Shown here in pieces: positions 21,052 to 22,676 of a stretch of DNA of 60,569 nucleotides. A program made the translations under genes and the position numbers. The notes under the pieces are model-generated. The model was not told the DNA's origin, made no database searches, and worked only from the letters and a program-made list of their open reading frames with translations. Origin of the DNA: a bacterium (lineage in GTDB: Bacteria; Myxococcota_A; UBA9160; SZUA-336); contig JAAELY010000316.1 in NCBI GenBank assembly GCA_024226335.1, positions 1 through 60,569 of the forward strand, read 5' to 3'. Position 1 is the first letter of the stretch; each line of letters starts with the position of its first letter.

Positions 21052-21579
21052 ATGGTGAGCCTTCTTCACTTCGTGCGCTGCCTGCTCGTCGGGTCGATGC
21101 TCGCACTACCAGGTGCGGCCCACGCGGACGATGCGCTTGCGTTGATCATCCACTCAGAAGGCGCGGTGATCTCAGAGATCTCGTTACCTGCACTTCGTCG
21201 AGTCTATCTGGGAAAAACGACTCGGCATGCGGGATCTCGCATCGAGCCGCTCCATCTGCGCTCGGGTAGTTCGGCTCGTCAGGTTTTCACCCGCGCCGTC
21301 TTCGGCAAGTCGGAGCAGGAGATGCAGGACTACTGGATTCAACAAGCGCTGTCCGGCGGAGATCTTCCGCCTCGCGAGTTTGGATCTCCGGAGTCGGTCA
21401 TCGAAGCGGTCTCACAGAAACCCGGTGTGTTGGGATACGTGCCTCTGAAGGCCTTGAATCCGCAGGCTCTAGAACGCGTGCGGGTATTGCGCGTGGGGAA
21501 GGGTGAGGCCGCCCCATTGCCGGGCGAGAACCGCTATCCAATCCGTATCGTCGAGCGTGACGCGCGCCCCCAACCCTGA
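21052..21579 (+). CDS. Small PstS-like periplasmic phosphate-binding-type protein
   Basis: A 175-residue secreted protein with signal peptide (FVRCLLVGSMLALPGAAHA) and a single-lobe version of the PstS/PBP fold. ISLPALRRVYLGKTTRHAG, RSGSSARQVFTRAVFGKS and VIEAVSQKPGVLGYVPLKAL match short phosphate ABC transporter substrate-binding homologues found beside porins. It is about half the length of a true PstS, so it probably assists or senses rather than feeds an ABC transporter, and no ABC genes are nearby. It is in one operon with the porin. A phosphate ligand is inferred from the family only. Confidence 0.78.
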   Translation: MVSLLHFVRCLLVGSMLALPGAAHADDALALIIHSEGAVISEISLPALRRVYLGKTTRHAGSRIEPLHLRSGSSARQVFTRAVFGKSEQEMQDYWIQQALSGGDLPPREFGSPESVIEAVSQKPGVLGYVPLKALNPQALERVRVLRVGKGEAAPLPGENRYPIRIVERDARPQP

Positions 21580-21611: not shown

Positions 21612-22676
21612 CTATCGCGCCAGTTCTTCGTCGATCGTTTCCACGAAAGCCTCGAACGGCTTGGCGCCACCCAGGAAGCGTCCGTTGATGAAGAAGGCCG
21701 GCGTTCCGGTTACACCTAGCGCCTGCCCGCTGCGCGCGCTGGCCTGCACCTGTTCAGCGAACTCATTCGAATCGAGGCATTGGGCGAACGGATCGGCGTC
21801 CAGTCCCAGTTCCGCGGCGAATCCCTTGAGCTGATCCGCGTCCAGCGACCCTCGGAGGTTCTCGAAGATCTTGTCGTGATAAGCCCAGAACTTCCCCTGT
21901 GCGTGTGCGCATCGGGCTGCTTCGGCGGCGGCTTGCGCCCGCCCATGGCTTGGAAGTGGATAGTCCCGATAGATGATGCGCACCTTGTCGCCGTACTTCT
22001 CGACCACCTGCTTGAGGGTCGGACCGACCCTCGCGCAGTAGGGTCACTGAAAGTCTGAATACTCGACGATCGTCACCGCAGCGGTCACGGGTCCGATGGC
22101 CGGCTCTGTCGGTGAGACGGGAACATCGGCGCGCGGCGGATCGAGGGAGATTTCCAGCTTCGCCTTCGCGCTCAGTCCGGCCAGAATTTCGTCTCGTCGC
22201 TCGACGACCCGATTGCGGAGCAAGAAGGCTTCGATGCGTCCGGCTACGTCTTCGAACTCGCGGCCTTCACCCGGTTTGAAGTTGGCATCGTAGAAAGTCC
22301 TTACCTCAGCTCCGGTCACTGGTGCGACGTGAGCCTCGATCTTTCGTTCGAAGAACTCGTCCGAAGTCACGCCTTCCTGGGCGGCGGCGGATTCGATCAA
22401 GCGTTCATTGATCAACTGCTCCAGAGCGCCCCGCCTGGCGTCGTACAAGCCTTGGTAAGCTTCCCTGTTGGTAGGGCTCGCGAATGCATCGAGTTCCTGC
22501 AGGGTGATCGGATTGCCGTTGAGGGTCGCCACGACAGCTCCCGAGGCCCGGGAATCCGCAGGACCGGACGATGGTGGTTTGCAGCCGCTGGCGGCCAGAA
22601 GGGCCACGGCAACCAGCGAGATCCCTCTCGCTGTAAGACCTGCAGAACGTTTGAGAATCGCCTGATCCAAATGCAT
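21612..22676 (-). CDS. DsbA-like selenoprotein (UPYC) fused to a SurA-N-like domain, lipoprotein; contains in-frame UGA
   Basis: A 354-residue protein read through an in-frame TGA at 22044-22046 (residue 211). A lipoprotein signal with lipobox AASGC (Cys32) is followed by a SurA/PpiC-type N-terminal helical domain (about 45-165: ATLNGNPITLQELD, ALEQLINERLI). A DsbA-like thioredoxin domain begins VTIVEYSDFQ, then U211-P-Y-C214, ARVGPTLKQVVEKYGDK and YRDYPLPSH, with the cis-Pro loop GVTGTPAFFING. The TGA stands exactly at the first Cys of the FxCPYC motif. An eight-pair hairpin fitting the SECIS rules lies just after it. The start is ATG 22676, or TTG 22703. A thiol oxidase, reductase or isomerase in the periplasm is likely. 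Confidence 0.88.
22014..22032 (-). promoter_or_regulatory. Bacterial SECIS hairpin of the DsbA-like selenoprotein
   Basis: On the minus strand the UGA (22046-22044) is followed by eleven bases, then a perfect eight-pair stem GAGGGUCG (22032-22025) / CGACCCUC (22021-22014) closing a three-base loop GUC (22024-22022). The loop begins with G-U and lies 19 bases after the UGA, within the 16-37 base window for bacterial SECIS elements. The hairpin is inside the coding region, as required in bacteria. Confidence 0.82.

Follow-up and report, generated by a model that had tools for sequence, protein, structure and literature searches.

The gene and its reading frame

We analysed a stretch of bacterial DNA of 60,569 nucleotides, here called the window, and found that one of its genes very probably (about 0.95) encodes a true selenoprotein, in which selenocysteine (Sec) would occupy the first active-site position of a U-P-Y-C motif. 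The initial annotation named no strand; the gene is on the minus strand, and the active-site context in its translation is YSDFQ-U-PYC. Under the standard stop reading, the gene breaks into two open reading frames of 219 and 131 amino acids and the catalytic selenoprotein is missed. The features of the gene and its predicted product are listed in Table 1.

Table 1. Coordinates of the predicted selenoprotein gene and of its features in the window.
Feature	Position	Strand	Basis or remark
Predicted selenoprotein gene, whole	22676-21612	minus	Translation with TGA read as U, Pfam; 354 residues including Sec211
Start codon ATG	22676	minus
Stop codon TAG	21614-21612	minus
Alternative start TTG	22670	minus	AGGAG six bases upstream
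In-frame UGA predicted to be read as selenocysteine	22046-22044	minus	Sec211, numbered from the ATG at 22676
Putative signal peptide with lipobox AASG-C	22676-22581	minus	Pattern visible in translation (LLAASGC)
Cys predicted to carry lipid, residue 32	22583-22581	minus	Lipobox pattern
SurA/PrsA-type N-domain-like region, without PPIase domain	22565-22134	minus	About residues 38-181; Pfam, model, Foldseek
DsbA/Thioredoxin_4 domain, active site U-P-Y-C, Thr-cisPro loop GVTGTPAFF	22112-21627	minus	Pfam PF13462, PF01323; PDB DsbA matches
Bacterial SECIS hairpin	22032-22014	minus	5' arm 22032-22025, loop GUC 22024-22022, 3' arm 22021-22014
SECIS lower stem	Hairpin extended to 22038 and 22008	minus

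The initial annotation had placed the UGA precisely where a DsbA-type CPYC motif has its first Cys, with protein similarity continuing in frame on both sides, and both statements were confirmed. Pfam matches to Thioredoxin_4 (PF13462; 115.6 bits, E 3e-33) and to DSBA (PF01323; 91.5 bits against a cut-off of 25.6, E about 7e-26 to 8e-26) each span the UGA. The residue aligned to the UGA is Cys in Corynebacterium diphtheriae DsbA (PDB 4pwp) and, encoded by TGC or TGT, in 41 of 41 Cys-containing homologues, and UGA stands there at no fewer than 125 other sites. With a DSBA score above the Pfam cut-off and a UxxC site in the form U-P-Y-C, the protein falls among the DsbA-like selenoproteins.

If the UGA acted mainly as a stop, a SurA-N-like domain would be made alone and the DsbA part would arise only by occasional readthrough. 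The part upstream of the UGA does amount to a complete SurA_N-like domain, and Sec insertion generally competes with termination; however, the UGA lies about 20 codons inside the DsbA domain, so that termination there would leave a useless stub, it sits at the catalytic residue itself, and Cys forms extend over the full length without any stop. We consider this reading very improbable.

The assignment of the region ahead of the DsbA domain draws on profile and structural comparisons. The SurA_N Pfam score of the window protein alone (19.8 bits) is below the cut-off of 27.2 bits, and SurA_N_3 matches it at E 7e-4; across eight fused Sec proteins, seven match SurA_N_3 at E<0.01, the best at E 2.5e-7. 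In an AlphaFold model built from eight sequences, the N-terminal region is predicted to be mostly helical (pLDDT about 65-93); the model is good for this helical domain only, the DsbA half being poor (mean pLDDT 67.8). Foldseek matched this region to BAM-bound SurA (8pz2_F; TM 0.55 of target, E 0.014), and the region also gave a weak match to the HP_0175 PPIase (E 0.13); Pfam returned no match to a parvulin PPIase domain in the window protein. The N termini of the Cys relatives are likewise lipobox-like.

Within their DsbA domain, the fused Sec proteins have two further invariant Cys (residues 256 and 300 of the window protein; alignment A2), which perhaps form a second structural disulfide. 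On the plus strand, an open reading frame at 21052-21579 converges with the selenoprotein gene; its C terminus (21300-21579) looks parvulin-like by eye and had no Pfam match.

The SECIS hairpin

The hairpin reported in the initial annotation, with eight base pairs and a GUC loop 19 nt downstream of the UGA, proved exact: GAGGGUCG-GUC-CGACCCUC. The published bSECIS model specifies a loop of 3-9 nt, a stem of 4-16 bp and a UGA spacing of 16-37 nt, with a G within the first two nucleotides of the loop and an energy of <= -7.5 kcal/mol (PMC13188914). A check against these constraints placed the window hairpin within all of them, with a 3-nt loop, 8 bp, G first, 19 nt and -20.2 kcal/mol. The latter value is that of a 39-nt fold (z -3.6), which 1 of 200 dinucleotide shuffles equalled; a 57-nt fold reached -27.9 kcal/mol (z -3.2, dinucleotide shuffles).

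Synonymous recoding, with the protein fixed and codons drawn according to the window's codon use, yielded no sequence among 5000 that folds as well as the native one, in agreement with the earlier argument that a random nonsense mutation would not create such a hairpin; an equally strong hairpin in the allowed range arose in 5 of 5000 recodings. A chance hairpin was ruled out by this comparison. Among synonymous choices, the joint probability of the stem-loop codons AGG GTC GGT CCG ACC CTC is about 2e-4; AGG, which lies in the stem, accounts for only 4% of Arg codons. The window contains 109 TGAs preceded by at least 80 open codons and followed by at least 50; of these, the TGA of Sec211 had the best SECIS score.

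Selenocysteine machinery in the genome

The genome (G000) is a metagenome-assembled genome of 5.75 Mb (97% complete, 3.7% contaminated, 556 contigs). The sel genes, for which the initial annotation had advised a search, were all found in it: selA (514 bits), selB (276 bits, or 301 counting a second piece), tRNA-Sec with anticodon TCA (UCA) (72.7 bits) and selD (336 bits). They lie on contigs other than that of the window, and the GC and tetranucleotide make-up of these contigs agrees with it. The selD gene (L018, G000:C545:82897-83823, minus) contains an in-frame TGA (LVPAGG-U-ARK) and is, by its sequence, itself a predicted selenoprotein gene.

The window holds a second selenoprotein candidate, which we counted in favour of the selenoprotein reading of the DsbA gene. 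This candidate is an exported thioredoxin on the minus strand (9400-8981), in which a TGA at 9226-9224 gives W-U-G-K-C in place of WCxxC and across which the Pfam Thioredoxin match extends (E 1.4e-14). Its hairpin, GCCGGC-AGUU-GCCGGU, with the loop 16 nt after the UGA, fits the bSECIS rules, and its fold is unexceptional (z -1.2; -0.8 against recodings).

Related UGA-containing genes

GTDB genomes were scanned with a DNA pattern encoding [FY]-x-D-F-[QE]-U-P-[YF]-C, which returned at least 120 stretches with at least 125 UGA sites. All 125 sites listed continue into DsbA-like sequence, and the phyla among them are Chloroflexota, Desulfobacterota, Acidobacteriota, Myxococcota and Planctomycetota. 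Since a single DNA pattern gave this many sites, overlooked UGA-DsbA genes must be numerous. In the phylum sample, the pattern occurred in 16 of 379 genomes, and a reversed control pattern had no match in the same 379. The window's protein is the only Sec DsbA of these 379 genomes with a SurA-N-like domain; the N terminus of the others is of a membrane-anchor type, or they contain multiple DsbA domains. Eight further Sec-containing SurA_N-DsbA fusions were present among the matches listed, in Acidobacteriota and Planctomycetota.

An RVGPTL-type peptide together with the window's hairpin type is common to 32 distinct Sec sequences among the matches listed. All 32 RVGPTL-type hairpins have GGU as the loop codon, and the residue matching it varies in the Cys forms (V, N, E, L, A and others); the invariant GGU codon indicates that an RNA element fixes some of the protein residues adjoining the active site. 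In a gap-free alignment of 30 of these hairpins, pairing is kept in 97.1% of stem cells, and shifting the stem partner by one base lowers pairing to 36-59%. Double-changed stem cells (G-C to A-U) number 4 in these 30 hairpins versus 0.7 in shuffles, in a hairpin that is little varied, with four of the eight pairs constant and double changes at one pair only. Hairpin scores are higher in the Sec set than in the Cys set (Mann-Whitney p 2e-15), and the Cys homologues as a group lack the window's hairpin type. Sec DsbAs from other groups carry different hairpins at different spacings.

The UGA-DsbA genes fall into at least five groups that differ in hairpin and peptide. One has RVGPTL at a spacing of 19 nt, and one, from Desulfobacterota, has EQVLEK with an AGGU loop at 34 nt. 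Two are mostly from Chloroflexota, with A-D/G-AGRQI at 28-29 nt and APVLAQL at 23 nt, and another has VRET with a CGUGA loop at 21 nt. Tandem proteins with multiple DsbA domains were also seen (L145, L148, L198, L199, L200, L202 and L213), some having UGA at two or more active sites and others mixing Sec and Cys domains.

These comparisons bear on whether the gene is an ordinary Cys gene that suffered a nonsense mutation, or a sequencing or assembly error, at its Cys codon. The codon TGC is one base from TGA, and relatives in the same family have Cys; nevertheless, such an event would leave the SECIS hairpin without a reason, the same UGA and hairpin recur in dozens of other genomes, and the Sec machinery of this genome is complete. 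On the hairpin, its recurrence and the machinery, we rejected this explanation as extremely improbable.

Cys forms and evolutionary history

The initial annotation had called the fusion of the two domains unusual, a view that was not borne out. Besides the further Sec fusions, a Cys SurA_N-DsbA lipoprotein is widespread in the phylum, which is probably Myxococcota, judging from four DsbA domains in the sampled genomes that have identical counterparts in named Myxococcota records. A match at E<=1e-40 is present in 312 of 379 genomes, and most of the matches listed span nearly the whole protein with no stop, indicating that the fusion is common. Full-length Cys homologues of the same lipoprotein-SurA_N-DsbA architecture occur in three members of the same family (G008-G010). 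The form in G008 (L021) shares 50% identity with the window's protein and has TGC in place of TGA and no comparable hairpin. A search for selB gave no match in G008, a genome that is only 73% complete; G009, which also has the Cys form, does have selB.

In L021, 14 of 18 bases match the SECIS, as a fossil element might. However, L171, with the peptide RVNPTL, also matches at 14 of 18, and the L021 hairpin region folds no better than its recodings; for these two reasons the match was discounted.

In a tree of the DsbA domain with the SECIS columns left out, the fused Sec and Cys proteins stand apart from the unfused Sec proteins with moderate support. In the full-length tree, the sister of the window's protein is the Cys form of G008, from the same family (support 97/87), and a topology uniting the fused Sec forms in one clade is not rejected (p-AU 0.10). 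As the fused Sec forms have nearly identical hairpins, a single old origin of Sec with losses to Cys, or transfer, appears likelier than repeated gain. The Sec state is probably old within the lineage, with Cys forms such as that of G008 representing losses. Given how little the 19-nt hairpin differs from those of Acidobacteriota, we regard loss in G008 as more probable than convergent gain of Sec from a Cys form in the window. No convincing synteny was found with G008-G010 or with the Sec loci, and thus no partner gene can be read from the context.

Relation to known proteins

That DsbA-like selenoproteins are known from surveys, as the initial annotation stated, is correct: UxxC members were reported from the Sargasso Sea in 2005 (PMC1088965), and the GOS survey of 2008 counted 63 sequences of 'DsbA 1' (PMC2398784). 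The name 'DsbA-like protein form 1' is used in PMC13188914. The GOS study gave fusions for Prx, Prx-like and UGSC selenoproteins and none for DsbA (PMC2398784). The window protein shares with the DsbA-like selenoproteins (PF01323, UxxC) the DsbA fold, the UxxC site with Sec at the first catalytic Cys and a SECIS directly downstream; in the window protein, a putative lipid anchor and a SurA-N-like domain stand ahead of these.

The Rcas_1661 family thioredoxin-like (seleno)lipoproteins (NF041057; DsbG-like, UxxC) are likewise Sec- or Cys-containing lipoproteins of DsbA fold, but the match to this model reaches 115.4 bits against a cut-off of 190 and covers the DsbA half only (residues 203-359 of P0001). 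The Cys SurA_N-DsbA lipoproteins of the phylum, such as L021, share the full-length architecture. The foldases SurA, PrsA and PpiD have an N-terminal helical domain, as is predicted for the window protein, which lacks their parvulin PPIase and carries a DsbA domain instead. In the open-access literature, we found no paper tying SurA, DsbA and selenocysteine together or describing the Sec fusion. The DsbA-like UxxC kind is therefore already known, and the SurA_N-DsbA combination in Sec form is apparently undescribed.

Proposed mechanism and redox direction

In the mechanism we propose, SelB carrying Sec-tRNA(UCA) would bind the hairpin just 3' of the UGA at its GGU(C) apical loop and, as sequence and comparison indicate, selenocysteine would be inserted at the first position of the U-P-Y-C active site. 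The product is predicted to be exported and lipid-anchored, probably in the periplasm, and would join a SurA-N-like chaperone-type domain without PPIase to a DsbA-type thiol-disulfide oxidoreductase domain. The SurA-N-like domain may hold unfolded envelope proteins, and fast thiol-disulfide exchange on these held clients, with the selenolate as the attacking group, would be the likely job of the protein.

DsbG and ScsC resemble the window protein in having a CPYC-type site, a Thr-cisPro and a non-catalytic N-terminal domain; unlike it, they use Cys and have an N-terminal domain that forms oligomers and does not resemble SurA. Because UPYC with Thr-cisPro is closer to DsbG/ScsC than to classical DsbA, we slightly favour a reductase or isomerase role fed by DsbD, a role that has roughly an even chance of being correct. 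The protein may instead be a real selenoprotein that works as an oxidase, adding disulfides and being re-oxidised by DsbB and not reduced by DsbD, a prospect that we rate somewhat short of even. The DsbA-family fold, the presence of DsbB in the genome and the several DsbA oxidants among the nearest solved relatives speak for oxidation; yet DsbB adjoins another, Cys-type DsbA-like gene (L041) and not the Sec gene, the active-site features are DsbG/ScsC-like, DsbD is encoded as well, and NF041057, the closest NCBIfam model, carries a DsbG-like label. VKOR was ruled out as a partner, none having been found in the genome.

Significance

The same architecture exists with Sec and with Cys, in one pair within a single family, and offers a natural comparison of the benefit of selenium to an envelope oxidoreductase. 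As a tentative proposal, to which we give rather less than an even chance, the SurA_N-fused Sec-DsbA lipoproteins of Myxococcota, Acidobacteriota and Planctomycetota may form a separate, undescribed subfamily in which Sec is ancestral and the SECIS dictates the RVGPTL peptide adjoining the active site. If true, this subfamily would link chaperone-type binding of clients with disulfide reduction based on selenium at the envelope.
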